Positions 67-15,675 of a DNA stretch of 24,924 nucleotides are shown here, one piece after another (position 1 is the stretch's first letter; each line of letters opens with the position of its first letter). The notes under the pieces were generated by a model. That model was not told the DNA's origin, searched no databases, and was given only the letters and a program-made list of their open reading frames with translations. Location: positions 1 to 24,924 of the IMG/VR virus record IMGVR_UViG_3300007735_000518; one strand, written 5' to 3'. The stretch is from a virus. The position numbers and the translations under genes are program-made.

Positions 67-543
67 GTGGGAAAACGAGGACCAAAACCGACGCCGACGA
101 GCGTGCTGAAGTTCCGCGGGAGCGAGCTGGCAGTGCAGCGCGAGAATGAACCCGAGGGCACCGACGGTCCACCGCTGCTGCTGCCGTTCGTCGCCAGCGA
201 CGAGGTGGCGCGCCGCTACTTCGACCGGCTGATCGAAGACCTGCGCCGGCTGGGACTGTACGCCGCCGAGGACTATCAGGCGCACAACGCCCTGGCGCAT
301 GCGTCGGCCGAGTTTGAGCGGGCGCACAACGTCCTGCAGGAAAAGGGTCTGGTCCTTGAAACGGCGCAGGGAACGTATATGAATCCATTCAAGAAGGTGC
401 GCGACGATGCGAGGGCTGAGGTCGCGCGCCTGTCGAAGTGCTTCGGCTTGACGCCGAGCGATCGTGTGGGCCTTGTGTCTTCCAAGAAGGCGAAGGGGGA
501 TGCCAGCGGGATCGAGTCGATCCTCAAGTCGAAGACGGCCTAG
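67..543 (+). CDS. terS: Terminase small subunit (P27 family)
   Basis: This is the DNA-recognition subunit of the packaging motor, which binds the phage packaging site and hands the genome to the large subunit. The 158-residue protein has the P27-family look: a basic start (MGKRGPKPTP), a helical middle with residues such as YFDRLIEDLRRLG, and a conserved block around MNPFKKVRDDARAEVARLSKCFGL (written here with the spacing of the family), ending in a basic tail. The length is normal for the family. The GTG start at 67 is chosen because AAAGGAG lies six bases upstream (54-60). It sits immediately before the large terminase gene and overlaps its start, as is usual for HK97-type phages. Family assignment is from memory of motifs and is firm; the DNA site it binds is not known. 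Confidence 0.9.
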   Translation: MGKRGPKPTPTSVLKFRGSELAVQRENEPEGTDGPPLLLPFVASDEVARRYFDRLIEDLRRLGLYAAEDYQAHNALAHASAEFERAHNVLQEKGLVLETAQGTYMNPFKKVRDDARAEVARLSKCFGLTPSDRVGLVSSKKAKGDASGIESILKSKTA

Positions 544-2137
544 GCTCGCGCCCGTCGCGGGCTTCAACGCATCGGCAACCGCCGCGAAGGGCGACTGGTT
601 CGACGTGGACGAACTGGCGCGCATCGACAAGTTCTTCGGCCTGCTGTCGCATCAGAAGGGAATCTGGGCGGGGAAGGCGTTCGAGCTGCTGCCGTGGCAG
701 CGCGATCTGCTCGGCTCGCTGCTGTGCTGGAAGCGCGCGGACGGCACGCGGCGATTCCGCCAGGCGTACATTGAGGTGCCACGCAAGAACGGCAAGAGCA
801 CGCTGGTGGCGGGCCTCGCGCTGTGGCTGCTGCTCGCCGATCGCGAGCCGGGCGCCGAGGTCTACTGCTGCGCAAGCGCGCGGGATCAGGCTGCGATCGT
901 CGGCGACGCCTGCCGGCAGATGGTGCAGTCGAACCCGGCACTTGCGAAGGCGGTCGAGGTGTTCCGCAACGTGATCACGTTCGGGAACAGCAAGCTTGAG
1001 ATCCTGAGCAGCGACGCGGGCACGAAGCACGGCAAGAACGCGAGCGCGGTGATCTTTGACGAGGTGCACACCTTCGCCGACCGCGACCTGTACGACGCGA
1101 TGGTGACTTCGATGGGCGCACGCCAGCAGCCGCTGATCGTGTCGATCACGACAGCGGGCCACGACCGCGAGAGCCTGTGCTGGGAACTACACGCCTACGC
1201 CGAGAAGGTGCGCGACGGTCTGGTCGAGGACCACGCTTTCTTCCCTGCCGTGTTCAGCGCCCCCGTCGATGCGAACTGGAAGAGCCCGAAGGTGTGGCAG
1301 AAGGCGAACCCCAGCCTGGGCGTCACCGTCACCGAGGCGTTCCTGCAGGCCGAGTGCGACAAGGCGAAAGAACTGCCCGCCTACGAGACGACCTTCCGGC
1401 AGCTGTACCTGTGCCAGTGGACTGAATCAAAGAAGGCATGGATCAGCACAGACGCATGGGCGGCATGCGCGTCGAGCGATGCAAACGCCGAGCGCCTCGC
1501 CGGCCGCGAGTGTTACGGCGGGCTCGACCTTTCGACCACGACCGACCTGTCGGCGCTGTCGCTGATCTTCCCGGGCGAGGACGGAACCGTGGACGTGCTG
1601 TCCTGGGCGTGGTGCCCCGAGGAGGGAATCCGCCGTCGCAGCCGCAGCGACCGCGCGCCCTATGACGTGTGGGCCGCAAAGGGCTTCCTGCACCCCACGC
1701 CCGGCGCGGTGGTGGACTACGAGTTCATCGCCGAGACGATCCGCCAGTGCTGCAAGCGCTACGCGGTGAAGTCAATCGGCTTCGACCCGTGGAACGCCAC
1801 GCAGCTCGCGAGCGGGCTCTACGGCGAGGGCGTGCCGATGATCGAAGTACGCCAGGGCTACCGCACCCTGAGCGAGCCGGCGAAGAAACTGGAGGCGCTC
1901 GTGGTCTCGCGCAAGATCCGGCACCCGAACAACCAGCTGCTGAACTGGTGCATCTCGAACGTGGTCTGCGAGTCGGACCCCGCCGGAAACCTGAAGCCAT
2001 CGAAGGGCAGCAGCACCGAACGAATCGACGCAGCCGCGGCGCTGGTGACGGCGCTGGCGACATGGCTGCACCAGAAGCAAGACGCGACTGGACCGAGTGT
2101 CTACGAACAACCCGAAAGGACTATCACATGGCTCTGA
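500..2137 (+). CDS. terL: Terminase large subunit (HK97-type, Terminase_1)
   Basis: This is the ATPase and nuclease that translocates and cuts DNA during packaging at the portal vertex. The N-terminal ATPase has Walker A VPRKNGKST (Lys about residue 99) and Walker B VIFDEVH (about 184-190). The C-terminal RNase H-like nuclease has its first Asp in YGGLDLSTTTDLSAL (about 343) and a late Asp in RIDAAAALVTALATW (about 510). At 545 residues it is full length. The start is uncertain: the frame is open from GTG 464, ATG 500 is preceded by GAAGGGGG that touches the start codon, and conserved sequence begins near GDWFDVDEL. I use ATG 500, giving a 44-base overlap with the small subunit gene. The stop overlaps the portal start by 10 bases, suggesting coupled translation. 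Confidence 0.93.
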   Translation: MPAGSSRSSSRRRPRLAPVAGFNASATAAKGDWFDVDELARIDKFFGLLSHQKGIWAGKAFELLPWQRDLLGSLLCWKRADGTRRFRQAYIEVPRKNGKSTLVAGLALWLLLADREPGAEVYCCASARDQAAIVGDACRQMVQSNPALAKAVEVFRNVITFGNSKLEILSSDAGTKHGKNASAVIFDEVHTFADRDLYDAMVTSMGARQQPLIVSITTAGHDRESLCWELHAYAEKVRDGLVEDHAFFPAVFSAPVDANWKSPKVWQKANPSLGVTVTEAFLQAECDKAKELPAYETTFRQLYLCQWTESKKAWISTDAWAACASSDANAERLAGRECYGGLDLSTTTDLSALSLIFPGEDGTVDVLSWAWCPEEGIRRRSRSDRAPYDVWAAKGFLHPTPGAVVDYEFIAETIRQCCKRYAVKSIGFDPWNATQLASGLYGEGVPMIEVRQGYRTLSEPAKKLEALVVSRKIRHPNNQLLNWCISNVVCESDPAGNLKPSKGSSTERIDAAAALVTALATWLHQKQDATGPSVYEQPERTITWL

Positions 2138-3903
2138 TCGACATCCTGCGCCGATATCTCGGCCCCACCCCGCCGCGCTCAGACTTCGAGGACACCGTGC
2201 CGATCGGACAGCCGACGAGCGGAAGCGTGCAGTCCTATGTCCAGTCGTACAGCTACACGGGCGAGAGCATCACGCCATCGCGCGCGCTCGAAGCGCCGAC
2301 GGTGTTCGCGTGCGTGCGTCTGATCGCGTCGAGCATCAGCCGCCTCGACTGGCAGGTATTGCGCGAGACCCCCGAAGGCAAGGTCGCCGACAGCGAGCAC
2401 CAGCTCTACAACCTGCTGAACTACGAGGCGTCGGACGATATCGGCGCGATCCAGTGGCGCGAGATGGCGCTCACGTCGGCGCTGCTCACGGGCAACTTCT
2501 TCGCCTACATCCACCGCGACAAGGCAGGCCGACCCATCGCGCTGGAGCCCTTGCGCAGCGATTTCGTCGCCATGTACCGCGACGGCGACAACCAGCCCTA
2601 CTACCAAGTCTGGACGGGCAAGTACACGGGCAAGAACGAAGAGAAGCAGATGCGGCGCTTCCGCGGCTACGACATGTTCCACCTCGTCGGGCCGACCACG
2701 TTCGAGGCCATGCTCGGCGTGCCCTTCATCCACCAGATGCGCGACCTGATCGGGCTGGAGCTGGAGGTCACGGAATACGTGACGCGGTTCTTCGCCCAGG
2801 GGGCCGTGCCCGGCGGCGTGCTGAAGATGCCGGGCCGGCTGAGCCCCGAGGCCAGCAAGCGCCTGCGCGATGCGTGGCAGGCTGCGCACGGTGGCGCCAG
2901 CCGCGCCGGCCGCGTGGCGGTGCTCGAGGACGGGCTCACCTACGAGTCGATCACGGCCACGGCCAAGGACAACGAACTGATCGAGATGCGCAAGTATTGC
3001 CGCCAGCAGATCGCGGCGGCGCTGGGCGTGCCTGCGCACAAGGTTGGCGACACTGAGAGCCAGAGTTACAGCAGCAACGAGCAGGCCGACGCGGAGTTCG
3101 TGAAGCACACGCTGGCCGGCTGGGCGGCTCGTCTGGAGCAGGAGGCCAGCCGCAAGCTGATCCAGCGCGGCGAGCGCTACTGCACGCGCATCAACTTCGA
3201 CAGCCTGCTGCGCGCCGACATGAGCACCCGATACGCCGCCTACGCGGTCGCGGTGACGAACGGCATCCTGACCCCGAACGAGATCCGGGCGCGCGAAGGT
3301 CTGCCGGCGGTCGATGGCGGCGACACCATCCGCCTGCCCATGAACACCGAGGCGCCTGGGCAGCCCGCTCCAGCCCCGAGCGAGCCCGCTGCGCCGTCCG
3401 ATGGCGTGCCCCCGTCCGTGGACGTTGAGCCCGAAGCGATCGCTCCTAGCGTCGATATGGACGCGCAGGACGAGGCCGAGGCGTTCAGCGCAGCCCGTGC
3501 CGCTACCTCGGCCATCGAGGCTGTGCGCCCAGCCGTGGAGGGCGCTTTCCGTCGCCATCTGCAGCGGGTCTCGGATTACCTGCTGAAGCAGCGCACGCAG
3601 GCCAAGGTGGACAAGTGGGAGCCGCCCATCGACTGCATCGACGACGACCTGCGCGCGACGGTGCGCGGTCTGGGCGGGCTCCTGGGCGACGAGGAGCGCG
3701 CCACGAAGGCGCTCGACGCGGCCCTGCTCCGACACGCCCGCCACCTGCGCAACGCGGTGACGGCCATCGGCACCTTGTCTGAAACGATTGACGGATGGCG
3801 ACACCTTCCCCAACTGGCAGCCGCCGAGCTGCTGGAGATGGTGCGCCTCGAAACCACACACGCACCCCTGCTGGAGACCCCCGATGCCAATCCCGAAGCC
3901 TGA
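2128..3903 (+). CDS. Portal protein (HK97 family) with C-terminal extension
   Basis: The portal forms the dodecameric ring at one capsid vertex through which DNA enters and leaves. The first ~410 of 591 residues are a typical HK97 portal: PTVFACVRLIASSISRLDW near the N terminus, EYVTRFFAQGAVPGGVLKMPG in the middle (split here as EYVTRFFAQ and GGVLKMPG), LGVPAHKVGD with SSNEQ, then GILTPNEIRAREGLPAVDGGD. The start ATG 2128 is preceded by GAAAGGA (2114-2120). After residue ~410 comes a Pro/Ala-rich linker and a helical domain of about 140 residues that most HK97 portals lack (usual length 380-430). The extension is in the same frame, with good codon use, so it is not a misread. Its role is unknown. 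The end overlaps the protease start by 20 bases. Confidence 0.92.
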   Translation: MALIDILRRYLGPTPPRSDFEDTVPIGQPTSGSVQSYVQSYSYTGESITPSRALEAPTVFACVRLIASSISRLDWQVLRETPEGKVADSEHQLYNLLNYEASDDIGAIQWREMALTSALLTGNFFAYIHRDKAGRPIALEPLRSDFVAMYRDGDNQPYYQVWTGKYTGKNEEKQMRRFRGYDMFHLVGPTTFEAMLGVPFIHQMRDLIGLELEVTEYVTRFFAQGAVPGGVLKMPGRLSPEASKRLRDAWQAAHGGASRAGRVAVLEDGLTYESITATAKDNELIEMRKYCRQQIAAALGVPAHKVGDTESQSYSSNEQADAEFVKHTLAGWAARLEQEASRKLIQRGERYCTRINFDSLLRADMSTRYAAYAVAVTNGILTPNEIRAREGLPAVDGGDTIRLPMNTEAPGQPAPAPSEPAAPSDGVPPSVDVEPEAIAPSVDMDAQDEAEAFSAARAATSAIEAVRPAVEGAFRRHLQRVSDYLLKQRTQAKVDKWEPPIDCIDDDLRATVRGLGGLLGDEERATKALDAALLRHARHLRNAVTAIGTLSETIDGWRHLPQLAAAELLEMVRLETTHAPLLETPDANPEA

Positions 3904-4411
3904 AACCCGTGCCCTCGGCACCCTTGCCCCTGCCGCCAACCTGAAGGTTCGCGGCTACGCCGTGACGTGGGACTCTTACGACATGGGCCGCGAGATGGAG
4001 CGGGTCGATCCCAACGCCTTCGCCCGGTCGATGGAGGAGCCCGGCGATATCGCGCTGCTCTGGAACCACGACACGGGCAAGCCCCTTGCCCGCGTCCGCG
4101 CCGGCAACCTGCGGCTATTCACCGATGCCACTGGCCTCGGTTTTGAGGCGACCCTGCCCGACACGGCAACGGCTCGCGAGGCTCACGCCCTGGTCGAGAG
4201 CGGCGTCGTGAGCCAGTGCAGTTTCGGCTTCATGGTGCGGGCTGAGAAATACGAGAAGGGCGTGGACAAGCCCACGCGCGTCATCCTCGACGCCGACCTG
4301 CTGGAGATCAGTCTGGTGACCTTCCCGGCCAACCCGGCCACCAGCGTCGAGGCTCGCGAGGCGCAGGCCGAGACGGTGCGTCGCACGATCCGACTCCTGC
4401 CTCCGCGCTGA
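3884..4411 (+). CDS. Prohead protease (HK97-type, peptidase S78)
   Basis: This serine protease is built into the procapsid and removes the N-terminal scaffold (delta) domain of the major capsid protein before DNA packaging. In the 175-residue protein the family pattern is visible: LKVRGYAVTWDSYD near the start, catalytic His62 in LLWNHDTGKPLARV, catalytic Ser113 in SQCSFGFMV, and the conserved DLLEISLVTFPANPAT block. Length is normal. ATG 3884 is chosen because GGAG lies seven bases upstream (3873-3876) and homology begins there; the frame is open further upstream inside the portal gene. It is followed by a 226-base non-coding stretch and then two capsid genes, of which only the second carries an obvious delta domain for it to remove. 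Confidence 0.93.
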   Translation: MPIPKPETRALGTLAPAANLKVRGYAVTWDSYDMGREMERVDPNAFARSMEEPGDIALLWNHDTGKPLARVRAGNLRLFTDATGLGFEATLPDTATAREAHALVESGVVSQCSFGFMVRAEKYEKGVDKPTRVILDADLLEISLVTFPANPATSVEAREAQAETVRRTIRLLPPR

Positions 4412-4421
4412 CCCCCCGCCC

Positions 4422-4448
4422 TTGCATCGCGTTTTTTTGACGCGACAA
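4422..4448 (+). terminator. Bulged hairpin with T-rich loop
   Basis: TCGCGT (4427-4432) pairs with ACGCGA (4440-4445) around a loop of mainly T, and the flanking TTG and CAA extend the stem past a two-base bulge. The T run is in the loop, not after the stem, so this is not a standard intrinsic terminator; it may be a regulatory or processing hairpin after the protease gene. Confidence 0.35.
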
Positions 4449-4584
4449 TGGCGGCCAATTGAATACCTCCGCGCGTGGGTGCCCCTGCCTAGTGCACGCA
4501 CACCACCGCGCGAGACAGACCTCCGTGCTTGCCCTCGTGGCGCACTGGCCTGCATGCGGACGTTGACTTGGAAGACCAACGAAC

Positions 4585-4621
4585 CGCCGGGCTAGTGCGC
4601 CTTTTTCGTCGCACCCCGGCG
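4585..4621 (+). promoter_or_regulatory. Stem-loop just upstream of first capsid gene RBS
   Basis: CGCCGGG (4585-4591) pairs with CCCGGCG (4615-4621), and inside it TGCG (4596-4599) pairs with CGCA (4610-4613) around a T-rich loop. The structure ends six bases before the GGGAG ribosome binding site (4627-4631) of the gene at 4638, a position where an RNA structure could stabilise the messenger or control translation. Confidence 0.45.
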
Positions 4622-4637
4622 CTAACGGGAGACTGCG

Positions 4638-5801
4638 ATGGAGAAGAAGAACCAACTGGATCGGAACAGCGAGGAGTACCGCGGCCTGTTTTCGCGCTAC
4701 CTCGCCCGCGGGCACAACGGCCTGACCGACGTGGAGGCTCGCGCACTGAGCGAGGGCAGCGCAACGGGCGGCGCCGTGCTGTTCCCCACGACCTACTCGA
4801 ACATGTTCATGGCCGAACTCGGCGACGATCGCATCGTCGGACAGGTGAGCAAGGTCTACAACTCAACAGGCACTTTCAGCGTGCCCATCATCACGCCGCC
4901 AAACAGCAGCAGTTCTGCTCCGCAGGGTTTCAGCGTGCAGAAGAACCCCGGCGAGGCTGGCACCCTGATCGACGCAACCGCTGGCAGCCAGACGCAGGTG
5001 ACTGTTCCGTCCTTCACGCTCCCCGGCACCAGTAACACCGGAACTGGAACTTCGACTTTTACGCTGAAGCGCATCAGCGTCCTGGTGCGTGCCTCGCGCG
5101 AACTGGTTGAGGATTCGGCGCAGATGGGCGACGCAAGCGTCGAAAACATCATCGTCAAGCAAGCGTCGCAGGACATTCTGCGCGAACTTTCTCGCCAGAT
5201 CCTGATCGGCAACAAGGACGACAGCGTGACCGCCGGCACGGCGAGCGCCGCAGGTAGCGACGCGTGCCACGGCATTGTGAACACGCTTAAGCGCTACGGC
5301 CGCAGCATCACCACAACGGCTGCAAAGGGCAACGCGACGGCGCTCATCAACGGCACTAACGAGCTGATGAACTGCATTTTAGGAATGTGCCACAACGAGC
5401 GACTCAGCCCGCACTACTGGGCAAAGTCGTCTTTGTTTGTAAACGCGCGTGCAAATTATTCAAGCACGGCAGCCAACACCGGATTGGTTTTTGGTGGCTT
5501 GTCTGCGAGCTCCGGCAACTTGTTGACGGTTGGCGATCGAAGGATTTTCGGCTTGCCGTATGAATTTTACGACATGAGCCCGGCGCAATTCGGAACAAGT
5601 AACGGCGTGCAGTCTGGAGAGCCGCTGCTTTTGGCTGTCGATCTTTCTCGTTACCTGCTCGCATTCGCGGGCAACGGGGTCAGCGTGACCCGACTGAATG
5701 AAACTTACGCCGCCACGAACGAAGTCGCGTTCATCGTGTCGGTTCGATGCGCAGGTGCGCTGACTGACGTGAACGCGGCGTTCGGAATTCATATCGGCTA
5801 A
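4638..5801 (+). CDS. HK97-fold major capsid protein 1, lacking the delta domain
   Basis: The 387-residue protein is a major-capsid-type shell protein. It shares the ARALSEG start block (residues 34-40) with the next gene, followed by GGAVLFPTTYSN, the LVRASRELVEDSAQM segment, the ILRELSRQILIGN segment and RIFGLPYEFYD, as in HK97 capsid proteins. Residues 11-40 line up with residues 104-132 of the second capsid protein (SEEY..LFSRYLARG against SDEY..AYETYLKRG), so about 93 N-terminal residues, the scaffold domain, are absent. ATG 4638 has GGGAG seven bases upstream, and there is no in-frame extension. The last third of the gene is clearly more AT-rich than the second capsid gene, suggesting separate origin. 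It could be a second shell component, a vertex protein as T4 gp24 is to gp23, or a relic. Confidence 0.85.
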   Translation: MEKKNQLDRNSEEYRGLFSRYLARGHNGLTDVEARALSEGSATGGAVLFPTTYSNMFMAELGDDRIVGQVSKVYNSTGTFSVPIITPPNSSSSAPQGFSVQKNPGEAGTLIDATAGSQTQVTVPSFTLPGTSNTGTGTSTFTLKRISVLVRASRELVEDSAQMGDASVENIIVKQASQDILRELSRQILIGNKDDSVTAGTASAAGSDACHGIVNTLKRYGRSITTTAAKGNATALINGTNELMNCILGMCHNERLSPHYWAKSSLFVNARANYSSTAANTGLVFGGLSASSGNLLTVGDRRIFGLPYEFYDMSPAQFGTSNGVQSGEPLLLAVDLSRYLLAFAGNGVSVTRLNETYAATNEVAFIVSVRCAGALTDVNAAFGIHIG

Positions 5802-5821
5802 AGCCGAAAAGGAAACACACC

Positions 5822-7129
5822 ATGAAGGGTTACAAGGAACTGCGCGAGGGCAACGACGCCCGCTACCGCGCCATGCAGGACATGATCGAGGCGGCGAACG
5901 CCAACGGCGGCGACATGAGCGCCGAGGACACCGCAAAGTTTGACGCGCTGAACGCCGAGTACCGCAGCGTGCAGAGCCAGATCGAGCGCAACCACGCGCT
6001 GATGGGCCTCGCCGCAAAGGACAAGGACGCCGGCTTCGTTGACGTGGGCCCGGACGCGCCCGAAGTGCGTCGCGCTCCAGCTGCTCGCGAGACCGCCCAG
6101 CGCGCTCCGCGCTTCGGCGACTTCCGCTGCAGCGACGAGTACGTCAAGGCATACGAGACCTACCTGAAGCGCGGCGAGCACACCCCCGTGGCCGAAATGC
6201 GCGCTCTGTCCGAGGGCACCGCGGGCTCCGGCGACGTGCTGCCACCGACCGAGTTCCACCAGGAGCTGACCAAGCGCCTGCAGCAGATGTGCGTGATGCG
6301 CAAGCTGTGCAAGGTGATGCCGCTGGGTTCGTTCAAGCGCGAGATCGCCATCGAAACGGGCCTCGTCAACGCGGGCTTTGTGTCGGAGGCTGGCTCGGTC
6401 GCGTCGGAAGGCGGCAGCACCTTCGCTGCTCGCACGCTGCAGCCGCGTCGCATCGCCGGTCTCGCCCTGATCAGCAACGAACTGATCGAGGACGCCCCCG
6501 CTCGCGGCCCCGGCTTCTCGATCGAGTCGATCCTGACGGAGCAGTTCTCGCGCAAGTTTGCCGAGGTGGAGGAGAACGGCTTCATCGCCGGCAACGCAGC
6601 TGCTCCCAACCCTCGCGGCCTGATGACCTACACCAGCACCGGCCAGAACCTGATCGCCGACGGCAAGGCGTTCGGCGGCACCGCGGCTGCTCCGACCTAC
6701 GCGATCGCTGACGTGATCGACTGGGTCTACAGCCTGCCGCGCGAGTACCGCATGCACCCTAGCACCGCGATTGTCTGCAGCGACACCTTCCTGCAGAACC
6801 TGCGCAAGCTGGCAGTCATCGCAAGCTCGACCACCACCTACTTCTGGCAGCCCAGCGGCGTGCTCGGAGAGCCCGATCGGTTCATGGGCATCCCGGTGTA
6901 CCCGTCCTACGCCGTGTCCAGCGGGGGCACGACTGGCAACCCGGCGAAGCTGGCGGTCATTGGTGCGTTCGACTACGCGGTCATCGGCGAGCGCAACGGC
7001 TACACCCTCAAGGTGCTGCGCGAGCGCTACGCCGAGACGAACCAGACGGGAATGCTTGCCCAATCGCGCACAGACTTCACGGTCACCAACGTGAACGCCT
7101 TCCGCTACCTGAGCACCAGCTCCACCTGA
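5822..7129 (+). CDS. HK97-fold major capsid protein 2 with delta domain
   Basis: This 435-residue protein is a canonical HK97-family major capsid protein. Residues 1 to about 100 form a charged, helical delta (scaffold) domain (for example MQDMIEAANANGGDMSAED), followed by the EMRALSEGTAGSGDVLPP block at 125-142 where the mature shell domain usually begins, then GFVSEAGSVASEGGSTF, LALISNELIEDA, FSRKFAEVEENGFIAGN and the conserved GIPVYPSYAV loop near the C terminus. The ATG follows AAAAGGAAA at a good distance. It lies 20 bases after the first capsid gene and uses strongly GC-biased codons, like the rest of the structural module. By architecture it is the main shell protein and the expected target of the upstream protease. 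Confidence 0.94.
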   Translation: MKGYKELREGNDARYRAMQDMIEAANANGGDMSAEDTAKFDALNAEYRSVQSQIERNHALMGLAAKDKDAGFVDVGPDAPEVRRAPAARETAQRAPRFGDFRCSDEYVKAYETYLKRGEHTPVAEMRALSEGTAGSGDVLPPTEFHQELTKRLQQMCVMRKLCKVMPLGSFKREIAIETGLVNAGFVSEAGSVASEGGSTFAARTLQPRRIAGLALISNELIEDAPARGPGFSIESILTEQFSRKFAEVEENGFIAGNAAAPNPRGLMTYTSTGQNLIADGKAFGGTAAAPTYAIADVIDWVYSLPREYRMHPSTAIVCSDTFLQNLRKLAVIASSTTTYFWQPSGVLGEPDRFMGIPVYPSYAVSSGGTTGNPAKLAVIGAFDYAVIGERNGYTLKVLRERYAETNQTGMLAQSRTDFTVTNVNAFRYLSTSST

Positions 7130-10147: not shown

Positions 10148-10438
10148 GCGTTGGGCAGGACGGTCGGAGAACTGGAGGAGACTTTGAGCGGCAAAGAGCT
10201 GACTGAGTGGCAGGCGTTTGAGGCCATCGACGGCCCGATCGGCAACCAGCGCGCGGACCTGCGCGCCGGGATTGTCGCGGCCACGCTCGCCAACTGCCAC
10301 CGCTCAAGCAAGGCAGCCGCCTTCAAGCCTCAGGACTTCATGCCGTTCGTGGAACGCCCGAAGCAGTCGCAGGAAGCGATGGCTGAGATGCTGGCCCAGG
10401 CGTTCGGCGTCAAGCCCAAATGGAAGGACGGTGCGTGA
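10103..10438 (+). CDS. Frameshift extension of tail chaperone (gpT-like part of the fusion)
   Basis: This open frame, -1 relative to the preceding gene, has no good start of its own and should be made only as a fusion of about 224 residues covering 9765-10103 then 10103-10438. Its sequence fits the T-type tail chaperone domain: FLFRLALALGRTVGELEETL, then ELTEWQAFEAIDGPIG, and RAGIVAATLANCHRSSKAAA followed by KPQDFMPF, the diagnostic end motif of DUF4035-like proteins. The T part recruits tail tube subunits to the chaperone-coated tape measure. The stop overlaps the tape measure start (TGATG). The zero-frame product stops at 10121. Confidence 0.87.
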   Translation, partial: LRERPLRQFLFRLALALGRTVGELEETLSGKELTEWQAFEAIDGPIGNQRADLRAGIVAATLANCHRSSKAAAFKPQDFMPFVERPKQSQEAMAEMLAQAFGVKPKWKDGA

Positions 10439-11661
10439 TGGGTGTCATCGGATCTTTGACTGCGCGCATGGTGCTGGAGACGGGTGAATACATGGCGGCC
10501 ACCGAGAAGGTGGTGCGGCGGACTGACATGATGGGCGGGCAGATTGGTCGAATCCTGCAGAAGGCTGGCAGCACGTACTCGAAGGCGATGATGAAGTCGA
10601 TCGTGGGCGTCTTCGGCATTGGCATGGCCGACACGATGGTGCGGTCAATCAGCGAGAACCTGAAAACCAACGCCTTCGGCTCTGTCGGCATGAACATCGG
10701 CTACGCAATTGCCAATGGAATCGCGGACGGCCTGAAGTCTGCTCCAGTCGCTGGCGCGCTTGGCGAAGCGCTGGCCTCGTTTACAGGCCCGGCGTTTGAC
10801 GCATACGCCGACAAGCAGAAGTCCTCGGAGGCAATTCGATTTTCGAGCGACGGCGGGATTGGTGGCTTCCTGCAGGAATACTTCTATGGCGGCAACGCAT
10901 CAGGACGCCAAGACGTTGCCATCGACAAGCAGAAGCAGCAGGCTTCGGCTGCACAGGTTGCCGCCGACATCACCAAGCAGTACGAGCGGCAGGCGGCGCT
11001 CATTAGCGCATCTTCAGAAGAAGAGAAGCAGGCTCTGGAGCGCCAGTACGAGCGCGAGGACGTAATTGCAAAGATCAGCGACGCACTAGCAAAAAGTGGC
11101 GCAGATCAAAAGACCATTGCAGATGCTCAACGCTCCGCAGCCGCCGCCCTGGACAAGGTGAACGCGGCGCAGGATCAGGCCGCCGAGCAGGCGCGGATCA
11201 TCAAGGAGCAGTGGGCCGAGTACGAGCAGATCATGGCCGACATTCAGGAAATGGACGAGGTTTCCCTGATGGTGCAGGACGAGCTCAACGAGCGCGAAAA
11301 GGATCGCGTCGATTTCATGCGCGATCTGCAGAACGCCTACGACGCTTCAATCATGTCGGAGCATGATCTGTTCCAGAAGCAGCTCGACAGCCTCGGCATC
11401 ATGGGTGAGCAGGCCGAGAAGGCGTGGGACTTGCATGACGCGATGGAGGCCCAGAAGCTGACCGCCGACGCCACCCAGCGCCTGCAGCGGATGATGGGCT
11501 TCAGCAACGTCGAGAGCCTGAACACGGCCATCGGCGGCGTGAAGGTCTCGGGCATGTCCTCGTTCAGCCTGGAGCGGATGATGCCGACGCAGGACGCCAT
11601 CCGGGCCGCCGTGCAGCAGATCGCAAAGAACACCGCACCCCTCGCGGCAGGAGCACCCTGA
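10438..11661 (+). CDS. Short tail tape measure protein
   Basis: The position directly after the chaperone pair identifies this as the tape measure protein that sets tail length and fills the tube. The 407-residue protein has an N-terminal region (MGVIGSLTARMVLETGEYM), a hydrophobic Gly/Ala-rich segment around residues 55-115 (IVGVFGIGMADTMV, GYAIANGIADGL), and a long charged coiled-coil stretch at about 165-330 (AEQARIIKEQWAEYEQIMAD). It is unusually short; lambda's is about 850 residues. At about 0.15 nm per residue it predicts a tail near 60 nm. The middle is more AT-rich than neighbouring genes. ATG 10438 overlaps the previous stop. Function is inferred from context, since tape measure proteins are poorly conserved. 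Confidence 0.78.
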   Translation: MGVIGSLTARMVLETGEYMAATEKVVRRTDMMGGQIGRILQKAGSTYSKAMMKSIVGVFGIGMADTMVRSISENLKTNAFGSVGMNIGYAIANGIADGLKSAPVAGALGEALASFTGPAFDAYADKQKSSEAIRFSSDGGIGGFLQEYFYGGNASGRQDVAIDKQKQQASAAQVAADITKQYERQAALISASSEEEKQALERQYEREDVIAKISDALAKSGADQKTIADAQRSAAAALDKVNAAQDQAAEQARIIKEQWAEYEQIMADIQEMDEVSLMVQDELNEREKDRVDFMRDLQNAYDASIMSEHDLFQKQLDSLGIMGEQAEKAWDLHDAMEAQKLTADATQRLQRMMGFSNVESLNTAIGGVKVSGMSSFSLERMMPTQDAIRAAVQQIAKNTAPLAAGAP

Positions 11662-12593
11662 TGGCTATCACGATCGCCCAGAAGCCCAACGGCACCAGCG
11701 TCACTTTCGACCGCGGCAAGTGGCAGGCGTCGAGCGCCTATGTAATCACCGACACGGCCGGCGCCCAGCTGAACGCCGGGCAGATCATGTCGGACACGAC
11801 GGTGAACGCGAAACTTGGCCCGTCCGACATGGGCGGCAGCAGCGGCGCGCTCGATGAACTGGACGGGTCAGGCGTTTCCGGCAGCGCCATTTACTTCGCC
11901 GGCCGCCTGCGTCAGGTCGGGTTCGACCTCAAGCAGGTCGATGACGGTGGCTACGTCTGGGAAGCGGTCGTGCATTTCGACTCCAGCGTGGGCGACAGCA
12001 CGGGCACGATCACGCCAGTCGATGCGCGCAACGAGGGGCAGCCGTCGTTCATCGCGATCGAGTACAGCGTCCAAGGCGAGCCGGTGGATATCTGGCGCGC
12101 CGGCGCAACTGCTCCGACCAACAAGTCAACACCAGCCGACACCGACATCGGCGGCACCAAGGTGGACAGCGGCGGCGAGCCGATCAGCAGCTTCAACAAC
12201 GTCGCGCGCGTGACCGTGCGAAACGTCATTGTTGGCCGCCCGACTCCCCCGCTGGGATTCATCAACAAGCGCAACAGCAACTCATACTCGATCGGCCCGT
12301 ACTCGTTCCCGGCTGACACCCTGCTTTTCACGGGCTGCAATATCAGCCGCGTCGGCAGCAGCACCTACGAGATCGTGTACTCGTTTGCATACGACGAGAA
12401 GTTCCACCTGCGTCAGATCGCAAAGAAGAGCGCCGAAAACGGCGAGGTTGTCAAGTCTGCGAAGGCCGACACCTGTGGAGGCACGCCGACCGCGCCGCCA
12501 AGCGGTGAAACGTCGCACGCTTCCTGCGTCTTCTGGCGCCAGCCGTTCCCCGACACCATCAGCTTCCCGCCCACCGGAATGTTCACGACATGA
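11661..12593 (+). CDS. Probable distal tail/baseplate protein, unknown family
   Basis: This 310-residue, beta-rich protein follows the tape measure gene with a TGATG overlap, the slot usually held by the distal tail protein or baseplate hub. I do not recognise a named family with certainty. Visible parts are a Gly/Ser/Asp-rich N-terminal half and a block with NNVARVTVRNVIVGRP, YSFPADTLLFTGCN and STYEIVYSFAYDEKFHLRQI. The last block (a TLLFxG turn, then YEIVYSFAYD) recalls, from memory, tail-region proteins of prophages in Planctomycetota that contain a WEISFKFA-like segment. It ends in a Pro/Ser/Thr-rich tail. Role at the tail tip is inferred from gene order only. Confidence 0.7.
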   Translation: MAITIAQKPNGTSVTFDRGKWQASSAYVITDTAGAQLNAGQIMSDTTVNAKLGPSDMGGSSGALDELDGSGVSGSAIYFAGRLRQVGFDLKQVDDGGYVWEAVVHFDSSVGDSTGTITPVDARNEGQPSFIAIEYSVQGEPVDIWRAGATAPTNKSTPADTDIGGTKVDSGGEPISSFNNVARVTVRNVIVGRPTPPLGFINKRNSNSYSIGPYSFPADTLLFTGCNISRVGSSTYEIVYSFAYDEKFHLRQIAKKSAENGEVVKSAKADTCGGTPTAPPSGETSHASCVFWRQPFPDTISFPPTGMFTT

Positions 12594-13120
12594 GGGTGAA
12601 CGGCGCATGGCACCTGAAGGTCGGCCCCTGGTCACCGAACCAGGTCCGTGCCATTGCCGACGCCGTGAACAAGGTCAACGACGCTGCGCCGCAACCGAAC
12701 AGCGGCAGCGCATCCGGGCCGACTGTGTTCCTCGCGCGCATCACGGGCGCGACCCCCGTGTCTGGCAAGACGGCCGTCTATGGCGGGAGCACCTCGGCCC
12801 GTCCCGTTGCGTGGACCTACGACTGGGAAGAGGTGAGCCTCAACACCAGCGACGCCTACGAGACGACGAAGAGCTACCGCCGGACCAGCACGCTGGCGGG
12901 CACGAAGGGCAAGGCGTTCAACGGGTGCGAAGGCGTACAGATGATTGGCACCACCGCCACGCTCGGGCCCGGCATCACCACCAGCAACATCCCGAACGGC
13001 TTCACCTTCAAGGAGATCGCCACGAACACCGTGGTGCTCATGTACGCGCTGTCGCGCGACAACGGTGAGCCGTGCTTCTTCTTCTCTGTCCCCAACGCCG
13101 TGACAGGAACATGCTCGTGA
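12590..13120 (+). CDS. Probable virion protein of unknown function
   Basis: The 176-residue protein starts at ATG 12590, overlapping the previous stop (ATGA). It has an N-terminal helix (SPNQVRAIADAVNKVNDA), then a Gly/Ser/Thr-rich, probably beta-structured body with VFLARITGATPVSGKTAVYG, AWTYDWEEVSL and TFKEIATNTVVLMYALSRD, ending in a Cys-containing tail. The body resembles short virion-associated proteins that carry bound ligands or decorate the tail tip, but I recognise no family. Position after the probable distal tail gene suggests a tail-tip or fibre accessory component. Confidence 0.65.
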   Translation: MRVNGAWHLKVGPWSPNQVRAIADAVNKVNDAAPQPNSGSASGPTVFLARITGATPVSGKTAVYGGSTSARPVAWTYDWEEVSLNTSDAYETTKSYRRTSTLAGTKGKAFNGCEGVQMIGTTATLGPGITTSNIPNGFTFKEIATNTVVLMYALSRDNGEPCFFFSVPNAVTGTCS

Positions 13121-13404
13121 GCCCCACCCCGATCGGACCCCGGCATCAGACGCACCCGCAGCTCGCCACGGCGATCAGCGTCATGCAGCTGTTCGTGCTG
13201 GTGGTGGGCGTCGCCGGCGTGTTCATCACGCTCGGCCGCAAGGACGCCATCCTCGACCGCCAAGACCGCGACCTGACCGAACTGCGCAGCATCGTGGGCG
13301 ACCTGGTGAAGTCGCAGGTGCTGGGAGCAGCGAACGACCAGAAGCACGGGGAGGCGCTTCAGCAGGTCGCGAACCGCCTCGACCGGCTGGAGGGGCGGCG
13401 GTGA
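13117..13404 (+). CDS. Small membrane protein with coiled coil (lysis cassette candidate)
   Basis: The 95-residue protein has one transmembrane segment (about residues 16-37, VMQLFVLVVGVAGVFITLG) followed by a charged coiled coil of about 55 residues (DRQDRDLTELRSIVGDLV ... NRLDRLEGRR). This is the layout of inner-membrane spanins (Rz-like) and of DUF2730-like phage proteins. I choose GTG 13117, which overlaps the previous stop (GTGA) and has AGGA eight bases upstream, over ATG 13111, where the AGGAAC would touch the start. It overlaps the next gene by four bases. Holin or spanin function is inferred only from topology and neighbours. Confidence 0.7.
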   Translation: MSPTPIGPRHQTHPQLATAISVMQLFVLVVGVAGVFITLGRKDAILDRQDRDLTELRSIVGDLVKSQVLGAANDQKHGEALQQVANRLDRLEGRR

Positions 13405-13919
13405 TCCGGGCGCTGCTGTTCCTGCTCCTCGTCGCCCTGGCGGCCTGCAGCCCTAGCCGACAGATCGCGGTGTCGGCGACCGACGCGCAGGAGGGGGCTG
13501 GCACCATCGCCCGCCTCGCCACGCACATCGGAAGCGTGTCCACCCAGCCCGACGTGGTGGCCGAGGCTGCGACGATCGTGCTGGAGGCCCAGAAGATCGA
13601 GCGGGCCGCAGCGTCGATCCACGAGGCGCTGCCAGGCGTCGAGGATCAGACCCCGTGGTGGGCCAGTCTAATGGGCTGGGGCTTCGCTGCGGCGATCGTG
13701 GTGGCCGTGGTGGTGCTGCTGTGGCAGACGGGCATCGGGCAGGCGCTGCGTGCAGCCGTGGGGCTCATCCCCCGGCGCGCGCGCACCGAGGCCGCCCTCG
13801 CCGCCGCGACCCTCGACCCGGCTCAAACCGAAAACGTACGCGAGTGGATTAGCGCCAAGCGCGCCGCTGACCCGCTCTTCGATTCCGCGTTTCGCGCGCA
13901 GCAGGAGAAGCGCACATGA
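13401..13919 (+). CDS. Lipoprotein with second membrane segment (lysis cassette candidate)
   Basis: The 172-residue product begins with a lipoprotein signal, MIRALLFLLLVALAACSPS, with lipobox LAAC and modified Cys16. An external Ala/Thr-rich helical segment follows (to about residue 84), then a clear transmembrane helix (about 92-110, WGFAAAIVVAVVVLLW) and a C-terminal part of about 60 residues. An outer-membrane spanin would have the lipobox but not the second membrane helix, so this is either an inner-membrane lipoprotein or an unusual lysis protein. The start GTG 13401 overlaps the previous stop by four bases, with GGAGGGG upstream. No family is recognised. Confidence 0.7.
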   Translation: MIRALLFLLLVALAACSPSRQIAVSATDAQEGAGTIARLATHIGSVSTQPDVVAEAATIVLEAQKIERAAASIHEALPGVEDQTPWWASLMGWGFAAAIVVAVVVLLWQTGIGQALRAAVGLIPRRARTEAALAAATLDPAQTENVREWISAKRAADPLFDSAFRAQQEKRT

Positions 13920-14053
13920 TCATCCTCGCCACCATCGAGAGCCTCATCGGTTCGACCTGGGCCGCTATCGCCACGCTGGCCATCGGCTACATCGCTGGCC
14001 ACCTTGTGAGCGTGACCCGCATCGCCTCGTGGATTCCGGGCAAGAAGGACTAA
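13916..14053 (+). CDS. 45-residue single-pass membrane protein
   Basis: A short gene starting at ATG 13916, overlapping the previous stop (ATGA), and ending at TAA 14051-14053. The product MIILATIESLIGSTWAAIAT continues with LAIGYIAGHL and ends in a basic tail WIPGKKD. Almost the whole first 30 residues form one hydrophobic helix. It is the third membrane gene in a row, all overlapping by four bases, so it probably acts with the two before it, for example as a pinholin, antiholin or membrane scaffold. Good codon use and coupled start support that it is real despite its size. Confidence 0.65.
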   Translation: MIILATIESLIGSTWAAIATLAIGYIAGHLVSVTRIASWIPGKKD

Positions 14054-14056
14054 CCC

Positions 14057-14737
14057 GTGAGCATGATGCAGGCGGGGTGCTGCTGCGGTGGCGAATGTTC
14101 GTGCCCGAGCGGCACCACATTGCCTAGCAGCGTTTCCCTGACCATCACCGTAACTGGTTGCCAAGGCACCACCGCTGTAATCACATGCGTTTTGCTACTG
14201 AACGCAAATGCACCGTGCGTGGTTGGTGTATGCCTGTGCCAAAAGTATTCATTTACGGCCAACCTAAACACAGCTGGCGGGTGCAGCGGGAACTATGCGT
14301 GCGACATGCCATACGATTCCTTCGACACTTGCCAAAACGGAACGCCAGACCCGGGGCAAGCATTGATCGGCATCGCCAAAGCGTCGCTAGGAACGAACGG
14401 AATTGGTTTTGATTCTGCGGAATACCCGGCCTGCGACGTGTGGTTTTTGCGCTTGACGTTAGAACTCAAGGCCGGGCTGAGTAACCCCACCGCGCAATCC
14501 GCAACTGACGTTTGCAACGATTGCCACTGGCACAACCCAAGCGCGCCGTGTCTCAGCCCTGCGTCTCAAACTTTTGACATGGGATTCTGGAAAGCCACCG
14601 GCCAAGACCCGCGAGGCACCTATGTGTCTGCCGTTGGTAGCCCGATTCCAGAAACCTGCTGGGTGGATGCTCCACCTTCGTGCGAGCCGTGTACTGGATT
14701 GTGGGGCATGACCATCAACGACATCACCATCGCATGA
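14057..14737 (+). CDS. Cysteine-rich protein of unknown function
   Basis: The 226-residue protein contains 20 cysteines. It starts MSMMQAGCCCGGECSCPSG, then has a probable beta-sandwich-like body (SSVSLTITVTGCQGTTAVIT), CVVGVCLCQKYSF, CSGNYACDMPYDSFDTC and, near the end, CNDCHWHNPSAPC and CEPCTGLWGM. No signal peptide or membrane segment is visible. The gene is markedly more AT-rich than its neighbours, suggesting recent acquisition. GTG 14057 follows the preceding stop by three bases; ATG 14063 or 14066 are alternatives. Cysteine pairs suggest metal binding or disulfides. Similar CCCGG-CxC starts occur, from memory, in uncharacterised proteins of Planctomycetota. Placement next to virion genes suggests a structural or host-surface role, not proven. 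Confidence 0.72.
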   Translation: MSMMQAGCCCGGECSCPSGTTLPSSVSLTITVTGCQGTTAVITCVLLLNANAPCVVGVCLCQKYSFTANLNTAGGCSGNYACDMPYDSFDTCQNGTPDPGQALIGIAKASLGTNGIGFDSAEYPACDVWFLRLTLELKAGLSNPTAQSATDVCNDCHWHNPSAPCLSPASQTFDMGFWKATGQDPRGTYVSAVGSPIPETCWVDAPPSCEPCTGLWGMTINDITIA

Positions 14738-15243
14738 TCGACTGCGACCACTGGAGCGAGTGCAAGGTGCTGGGCGGCGGCTGCTGCGCTGCTGGTCACT
14801 ACGGCGGCCGGCCGAGCCTCGGCGTGTGCGCCCAGTGTCCGCACCGCGTGATCCGCGGCGAGCAGCCCATCGGCACCAGCATCACCTACGGCTTCATGGA
14901 CCGCGCAAAGGCGTACCTGGCTGCCGAGGCGCGTCACGCGGCGCAAGGCCCGGCGAGCGTCCAAGTGCAAGCCGAGCGCACCGCCATCTGCAAGGGCTGC
15001 GACGGGCGCGCCGACGAGATGGAGGGCAAGGCCGACCCGGGCGGCATCGGCTTCTGCACGCGGTGCGGCTGCACCAGCACGCGCGCCGCGCTGTCCGTGA
15101 AGCTGACGCTGGCCGGCGCCACCTGCCCGCTCGGGAAGTGGCAGCCTGTTCAGGGCGAAGGCGGCAGCGTCGCCACCACGATCGAGGCGATCGGCGGCGT
15201 GGCCGGCACCGTTGCGGATCAGATGAAGCGGCTGCTGGGTTAG
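14734..15243 (+). CDS. Cys-rich, probable zinc-binding protein of unknown function
   Basis: The 169-residue protein starts at ATG 14734, overlapping the previous stop (ATGA). The N-terminal part (MIDCDHWSECKVLGGGCCAA ... GVCAQCPHR) and the middle (AICKGCDGRADEM ... GFCTRCGCTSTRA) each carry two CxxC-like pairs, a layout typical of paired zinc ribbons or knuckles. The C-terminal 35 residues are Gly/Ala-rich, with a last helix (ADQMKRLLG). GC content and codons match the structural module, unlike the gene before it. Together with that gene it forms a Cys-rich pair. Its stop overlaps the stop of the convergent minus-strand gene. No family is recognised. Confidence 0.72.
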   Translation: MIDCDHWSECKVLGGGCCAAGHYGGRPSLGVCAQCPHRVIRGEQPIGTSITYGFMDRAKAYLAAEARHAAQGPASVQVQAERTAICKGCDGRADEMEGKADPGGIGFCTRCGCTSTRAALSVKLTLAGATCPLGKWQPVQGEGGSVATTIEAIGGVAGTVADQMKRLLG

Positions 15244-15443
15244 CGACGACCGGCTGCCTGCATCACGGCGACGCACTGCGACAGAATCAGCACACCCAAA
15301 CCGGCGCACAGCACTGCCACGATCACGTTCGTCAGCGAGAACCGCGACTTCTTCTTCTCCAAGCTCTTGCGATACTCAACCTCGGCCTTGATGCGGCGCT
15401 TGTCTGCTGCGCTCAGGCCACCGTCTTCTTGCACTGTTGCCAT
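15240..15443 (-). CDS. Small C-terminally anchored membrane protein, minus strand
   Basis: This is the only minus-strand gene I support. The 67-residue product begins MATVQEDGGLSAADKRRIKA, has a basic, helical middle (AEVEYRKSLEKKKSRFSL) and one C-terminal transmembrane helix (TNVIVAVLCAGLGVLILSQC). ATG at 15443 is chosen because GGAGGA (15451-15456 on the complement) lies seven bases upstream, one of the best ribosome binding sites in the window. Its stop codon overlaps the stop of the plus-strand gene it faces. A lone membrane protein gene next to the integrase, in opposite orientation, is a typical place for a lysogen-expressed gene such as a superinfection-exclusion factor, but no family is recognised. 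Confidence 0.65.
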   Translation of the reverse strand: MATVQEDGGLSAADKRRIKAEVEYRKSLEKKKSRFSLTNVIVAVLCAGLGVLILSQCVAVMQAAGRR

Positions 15444-15675
15444 GTGGGGCTCCTCCAGAAGCGCGCACGATAGTGCTCGCGAGCCGCGGCGACAAACAGA
15501 AGAAACTGAAGCATTTTTCCGACTCCGATGATGGCTTCGCACGTTGTGCATAACTTTGCGCGTCCCCCAAAAGCATGACGTTCTGCACTAGTTTTGCGAT
15601 CAATGAAGGTCCGGGTGACTTTTGAGTTTGATCTGGGTGCTAGCGTGGAGGCGGAGCCATGCGTGGAGATACCTC
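15444..15675. other. 232-base intergenic region between minus-strand gene and integrase
   Basis: This divergent space should hold the promoters of the small minus-strand gene and of the integrase. I see a 10-bp palindrome GCTCGCGAGC (15475-15484) that could be an operator, and a locally AT-richer stretch around 15548-15600, but no promoter boxes I would defend. A frame is open from TTG 15622 into the integrase, without a ribosome binding site. Confidence 0.5.

Follow-up and report, generated by a model that had tools for sequence, protein, structure and literature searches.

Why should a small phage genome encode two capsid proteins of the HK97 fold side by side, only one of which carries a full scaffolding delta domain? 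The locus lies in the 24,924-base virus record IMGVR_UViG_3300007735_000518 (positions 1 to 24,924), the whole of which was analysed and is referred to below as the window; the head-region features located in it are on the + strand. We consider it fairly probable that the two proteins divide the head between them: the one with the delta domain, MCP2, would form the hexamers and the portal-proximal scaffold, and the other, MCP1, would be a dedicated pentamer protein.

Two capsid genes in one head-tail operon

The window contains an HK97-type head-tail operon composed of TerS, TerL, portal, S78 protease, two capsid-like genes, and a 67-aa ORF, followed 3' by head-tail adaptors, a tail terminator, a major tail protein, and a chaperone. 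A temperate-phage module comes next, i.e., tyrosine integrase, exonuclease VIII-like and RecT-like proteins, primase/helicase, and a RusA-like resolvase. The terminase large subunit (464..2137) matches PF20441/PF03354 and phrog_9 (2.8e-174). The portal protein ORF spans 1669..3903, with its true start near 2029-2100, and matches PF04860 (1.3e-93) over ORF residues 210-544. The S78 prohead protease (3884..4411; PF04586, 1e-40) starts at MPIPKP. In the tail region past the chaperone (10420-15473), several ORFs had no PHROG match, among them a 413-aa ORF in the expected place of a tape measure.

Both capsid-like proteins are HK97 homologues and their genes stand in tandem. MCP2 (5822..7129; 435 aa) is a canonical HK97-type major capsid protein with a delta domain, the proposed hexamer subunit and scaffold donor; MCP1 (4638..5801; 387 aa) is a second HK97-fold capsid protein, the proposed pentamer or vertex subunit. 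Searches of Pfam, PHROGs and NCBIfam matched MCP1 and MCP2, respectively, to PF05065 Phage_capsid (2.3e-14 and 4.5e-45), the phrog_10 major head protein (7e-22 and 7e-66), and TIGR01554 major_cap_HK97 (3e-21 and 3e-68, above the cutoff); PF05065 was matched by 21 of 21 aligned MCP1 proteins. The two are 25% identical to each other (BLASTP E 1e-12), and hhalign aligned MCP1 residues 10-381 with MCP2 residues 102-425 (probability 98.5, E 1.4e-15). These results bear out a preliminary description of the locus as two tandem HK97-fold genes with a common RALSEG block, the first starting at about residue 94 of the second.

AlphaFold models of both proteins were weak (mean pLDDT 48.5 and 41.9). For the MCP1 model (pTM 0.48), the top Foldseek matches in the PDB were nonetheless all HK97-fold capsids or encapsulins, with 169 matches at E <= 1e-3 and agreement from a viral library. 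The MCP2 model was the weaker of the two and had its best structural match in RcGTA (7.7e-4), whose major capsid protein is also the nearest solved sequence to MCP2 (3.5e-31). The MCP1 profile had no match at E <= 1 among all PDB chains, T4 gp24 included. A first protein without the capsid fold, raised in the preliminary description as an outcome that would overturn it, is thus not what the family profiles and the Foldseek matches of the weak model indicate.

The window probably represents a nearly complete genome, since the longest contigs of its clade are 25-28 kb (up to 27.8 kb) and many of them share a start point a few hundred bases 5' of TerL. Positions 1-20 of the window and the starts of approximately 15 related contigs coincide at one homologous point (..CTGCACGCGGC or GTTCGTTATCGAC), ~420-600 bases 5' of TerL, with the first 7-8 bases varying between lineages; it is as if the genome ends were fixed (cos-like). 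A circular genome was not accepted on the overlap of contig ends. Contig IMGVR_UViG_3300042321_001003 (L026/L029) carries the start of the protease-leader-MCP1 segment at both ends, but these are only ~96% identical and may stem from a mixed population or from an assembly that is nearly circular. Rough arithmetic with a published scaling exponent of 0.71 (PMC8814770), starting from T=7 at ~40 kb, suggests a head of T ~5. In relatives of the L024 type, the 67-aa gene is separated from the head-tail adaptor by an inserted 578-aa ORF (8530-10266 in L024) with a GDSN (SGNH-hydrolase-like) motif and no Pfam match; an insertion of about this size occupies the same position in L026.

Propeptides and the RNA leader

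Of the HK97 delta domain, residues 2-66 assemble into trimeric coiled-coil towers, with two towers in each hexamer and contact to the portal, whereas residues 76-103 (the spoke), a helix-turn-strand, line the capsomer up to the K103|S104 cut (PMC10275583). The delta domain of MCP2 comprises residues 1-127 (5822..6202), of which residues 1-102 are almost invariant in the alignment; its weak model has two long helices (2-27 and 34-69). In MCP1, the corresponding part is a short propeptide of residues 1-35 (4638..4742) that has no coiled coil and matches the capsomer-lining spoke in alignments. Consistently, the TIGR01554 model is matched from position 2 by MCP2 and from position 74 by MCP1. The two proteins share the pattern EY...YL..G...E.RALS, including a helix before E-x-RALS, with ~35 residues ahead of RALS in MCP1 versus ~127 in MCP2. 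From its alignment with MCP2 and the anatomy of the HK97 delta domain, MCP1 has lost the towers and kept the lining segment together with a probable cleavage site. The earlier view that MCP1 has no delta domain therefore holds for the coiled-coil part, which is present before the putative protease site of MCP2 and absent from MCP1, and not for the ~35 residues that remain upstream of the putative cut. A delta domain supplied by an upstream frame or a frameshift was ruled out by a stop codon just 5' of the MCP1 start and the conserved non-coding leader further 5'.

The RALS block is probably the protease cleavage site in both proteins. Alignments place the putative sites within RALSEG at R35|A36 in MCP1 (4740..4757) and R127|A128 in MCP2 (6200..6217). 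The R, A, L, and S of the MCP1 block are invariant in 21 aligned proteins, with RALS, RALT, or RAIS found in a wider set. An invariant arginine in RALS and an S78 protease in the operon are signs of HK97-type maturation for both proteins, and the P1 residue is likewise lysine or arginine in HK97, the phi12 capsid protein (CP), and Ccm (PMC8569155, PMC10275583).

The 226 bases between the protease gene and MCP1 (4412..4637) form a conserved structured 5' leader region, 93-97% identical in close relatives and thus above the adjoining genes. A putative sigma-70-like promoter (4422..4449; TTGCAT and GACAAT separated by 16 nt) was deduced from the conservation of its position in 27 aligned relatives; a scan for the strict consensus was negative here. 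The leader itself, of ~180 bases, is structured (z -3.1) and contains three conserved elements: a covarying hairpin with an invariant CUAGU loop (~4475-4506), an almost invariant helix GGCGCACU/AGUGCGCC (4539-4546 with 4594-4601) that leads into a U-tract, and, ahead of the start codon, another covarying helix, GCCGGG/CCCGGC (4586-4591 with 4615-4620). This folding and covariation agree with the earlier remark that MCP1 has a structured leader of its own. The helices are mutually exclusive or pseudoknot-like, and alternative pairing of this kind would suit attenuation or translation control, which we offer only as a suggestion. The leader had no match in Rfam, and its motif was found only upstream of the capsid pair of this clade; a match in a 62-kb contig (L246) lay inside a coding region and was dismissed as chance.

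Conservation and exchange of the capsid pair

A search of IMG/VR with MCP1 yielded 28 loci and was extended by profile scans with MCP1, MCP2, and TerL. In these profile HMM scans, MCP1 was directly followed by MCP2 in 53 contigs besides the window, always in the order TerL, portal, S78 protease, leader, MCP1, MCP2; recurrence of the tandem pair in other phages, which the preliminary description had proposed checking, is thereby established. The gap between the two genes is ~20-30 bp in most members. We defined the clade by a TerL at least 66% identical, and among its contigs with enough sequence none is without MCP1 or MCP2; those missing one of the genes end too early. The phage group with the pair is widespread, small, tailed, and uncultured.

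Prophages and phages with TerL at or below 48% identity had a single detectable major capsid protein, with the exception of two 36-kb contigs, L071 and L072. The nearest publicly recorded phages likewise have a single MCP. Large ORFs beside the capsid gene in nine other loci included no capsid gene; seven encode S78, S49, or ClpP proteases, a head-completion domain was recognized in another, and the last had no match. Relatives of MCP1 were not found in 50,697 phage records or, by pattern scan, in GTDB genomes, and we found no report of tandem or paired major capsid proteins in small phages in the open-access literature. Confinement of the pair to the clade was nevertheless rejected, since L071 (4582-5646) and L072 (4630-5682) also carry an HK97-like gene between the protease and a delta-bearing MCP. 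The products of these genes match PF05065 (5e-8 and 9e-9) and a broadened MCP1 profile (3.8e-6 and 1.6e-3), and begin at M-ALS, without a propeptide, at the same point as the predicted mature end of MCP1. In L071, the gene overlaps the protease gene and lacks the leader.

MCP1 is under purifying selection, with dN/dS mostly 0.03-0.39. Inactivating mutations in relatives, a second outcome that would have counted against the preliminary description, were not seen among 49 distinct MCP1 ORFs, all intact and with dN/dS well below 1. MCP1 evolves faster than the neighboring genes. In the tree, MCP1 and MCP2 are each monophyletic, with MCP1 on a long branch and MCP2 grouped with the L071 MCP (98/87); a test of MCP1 as a duplicate of MCP2 versus acquisition gave an AU p of 0.32. 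The MCP1 sub-type of L184, L178, and L186 is longer, and that of L184 contains an insert resembling a repeat (GYTSAPTVSFSGGGGSGATA...) in what is presumed to be the E-loop, possibly a surface decoration.

The DNA of MCP1 is indeed AT-richer than that of MCP2 (G+C 0.593 versus 0.664), as had been described, and its GC3 is the lower of the two in 37 of 39 genomes. The suggestion that MCP1 was added separately finds no support if a recent event is meant: the pair is present in every clade member, MCP1 is monophyletic there, and, with low GC3 common to these 37 relatives, the AT-rich DNA was rejected as a sign of recent import. The low G+C is most pronounced in a single hypervariable segment, an AT-richer A-domain cassette of residues ~201-337 (5238..5648). 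In close relatives, DNA identity is 37-66% over the A-domain (~5250-5550) versus 71-97% on both flanks, and the cassette is different in each of them. Since dN/dS within one A-domain type is 0.11-0.27 among informative pairs, this hypervariability looks less like positive selection than like a swapping of allelic cassettes.

Exchange also separates the two proteins. Across 39 genomes, the bodies of MCP1 and MCP2 recombine independently (A-domains, rho 0.40); L040 and L050, for example, have 100% identical MCP1 proteins and MCP2 A-domains that are 39% identical. The N-terminus of MCP1, in contrast, co-varies with the MCP2 delta domain (rho 0.81) more than with its own A-domain (rho 0.54). We read MCP1 as two modules, a propeptide that would be fitted to the assembly machinery of the phage and a swappable shell body, and note linkage to the upstream genes as an alternative cause of the correlation.

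Proposed roles and known two-protein shells

In the model that we favor, the two genes would be one co-expressed capsid cassette. MCP2 would be the main shell protein, forming hexamers, with its delta domain (residues 1-127) acting as a built-in scaffold that organizes assembly round the portal; as only MCP2 has towers, it should be the protein that adjoins the portal. MCP1 would assemble as the pentamer subunit on the MCP2 scaffold, and the same S78 protease would trim the propeptides of both. A vertex subunit could afford to lose its tower, since five pentamer subunits cannot make two trimers. We infer co-assembly, cleavage at R|ALS, and the vertex position of MCP1 from several features of the locus and its relatives. 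The pairing is obligate, with no exception among the long-enough contigs; in the two solved heads made of two proteins, the shorter propeptide is that of the pentamer protein; the MCP1-like protein of L071 and L072 starts at what is the predicted mature end of MCP1; and the N-terminus of MCP1 tracks the MCP2 delta domain over its own A-domain. The independent exchange of A-domains is in keeping with each protein forming its own capsomers, and the lower GC3 of MCP1 is weakly consistent with a minor component. The proposal in the preliminary description, that MCP1 is a vertex or minor subunit using the scaffold of MCP2, is thus plausible. Against it, the parallels with T4 and Ccm are by analogy, as MCP1 has no sequence match to solved capsids; the identical MCP1 proteins found with very different MCP2 bodies (L040/L050) could mean that the proteins are perhaps not in close touch; and it is not obvious why a 25-28 kb genome should need a vertex protein of its own.

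Other roles for MCP1 were weighed on the same evidence. Random co-assembly, with MCP1 and MCP2 mixed more or less freely in the same pentamers and hexamers, has a precedent in the two HK97-fold proteins of the Family 2B encapsulin of Streptomyces lydicus (PMC12407261) and would suit two genes set so closely together under one leader. We find it distinctly unlikely, given that A-domains touch within a capsomer and yet are swapped independently here, and that random mixing in one ring would be less likely at 25% identity. A conditional MCP1 might instead drive smaller or isometric heads, such that the phage makes two head classes, in line with the alternative capsid sizes raised in the preliminary description. 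Pentamers of satellite-encoded Ccm convert the prolate heads of phi12 to T=4 (PMC8569155), the small genome, with contigs of up to 27.8 kb, fits a small head, and the leader could regulate the cassette; this switch is unlikely, however, because a single leader precedes two genes that always occur together, no separate control of MCP1 was seen, and one genome size leaves no clear use for two head sizes.

It is very unlikely that MCP1 works outside the shell of its own virion, whether as a dominant-negative or decoy protein against competing phages or satellites or as an assembly-only protein. Its hypervariable cassette would fit an arms race, as would its faster evolution than its neighbors, but the variability looks like allele exchange under purifying selection, the gene sits directly 5' of MCP2 in a morphogenesis operon and is never lost, and the propeptide and protease-site block track the MCP2 delta domain. 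To an evolutionary leftover or neutral duplication we give almost no credence. Tandem duplicates are common in phages and MCP1 is on a long branch; a pseudogene or neutral duplicate was nevertheless rejected on the intact ORFs, dN/dS far below 1, absence of loss from any clade contig, and occurrence of a similar pair in another lineage. The vertex reading can be extended, more tentatively, to the whole group: a small (~25-28 kb) temperate siphophage lineage, together with the distant 36-kb pair, may build heads from two obligate HK97-fold proteins, one a hexamer protein with the only scaffold and the other a stripped pentamer protein with an A-domain cassette, under a promoter of their own and a clade-specific RNA leader that perhaps sets their amount or ratio.

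The nearest parallels come from T4 and a phage satellite. In T4, as here, one phage encodes two HK97-fold proteins, gp23 (hexamers) and gp24 (vertex pentamers), which are ~20% identical and are both trimmed by the phage protease, and one propeptide is much the shorter (10 residues in gp24 versus 65 in gp23) (PMC9958956). Unlike T4, which has a ~171 kb genome, a prolate head, and a separate scaffold core, the present phages have ~25-28 kb and a scaffold that would be the MCP2 delta domain; MCP1 has no sequence match to gp24, and its vertex position is proposed by analogy. Ccm of SaPIbov5 is likewise an HK97 homologue with a shorter propeptide (87 residues versus 128 in the phi12 CP, at 24% identity), and it exclusively forms the pentamers of a delta-domain head that has no separate scaffold protein (PMC8569155). 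Ccm, however, is made in trans by a satellite, still has a delta domain of its own (87 residues), and diverts heads to another shape, whereas MCP1 belongs to the operon of the phage itself, is never lost, and has only ~35 residues ahead of its putative cleavage site. The window and its relatives, moreover, encode TerL, portal, protease, tail, and replication genes, unlike a satellite. The Family 2B encapsulin resembles the present pair in that two HK97-fold shell proteins, which there co-assemble, are encoded together (PMC12407261); it differs in being a cellular nanocompartment with mixed pentamers, in contrast to a full phage head-tail operon with portal, terminase, and protease.

In its delta domain, S78 protease, and portal, MCP2 resembles the proteins of ordinary single-MCP heads such as HK97, RcGTA, phi12, and the nearest prophages. 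These use one protein for pentamers and hexamers, and no second HK97 gene was seen in their loci. Two-protein HK97 shells are treated as rare, being known from T4 and one encapsulin (PMC12407261), and dedicated vertex proteins have hitherto been known chiefly from large phages of the T4 type and from a single phage satellite. As a 2026 review links the two-gene shell to the large genome of T4 (PMC13185644), the small genome is the surprising part of our proposal. If the proposal is true, large genomes are not alone in affording a division of labor between pentamers and hexamers, and scaffold-bearing and scaffold-less subunits would let the purpose of the delta domain at pentamers and hexamers be asked directly. 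For annotation, the locus is a warning against always taking the first HK97 gene 3' of the protease for that of the main capsid protein.
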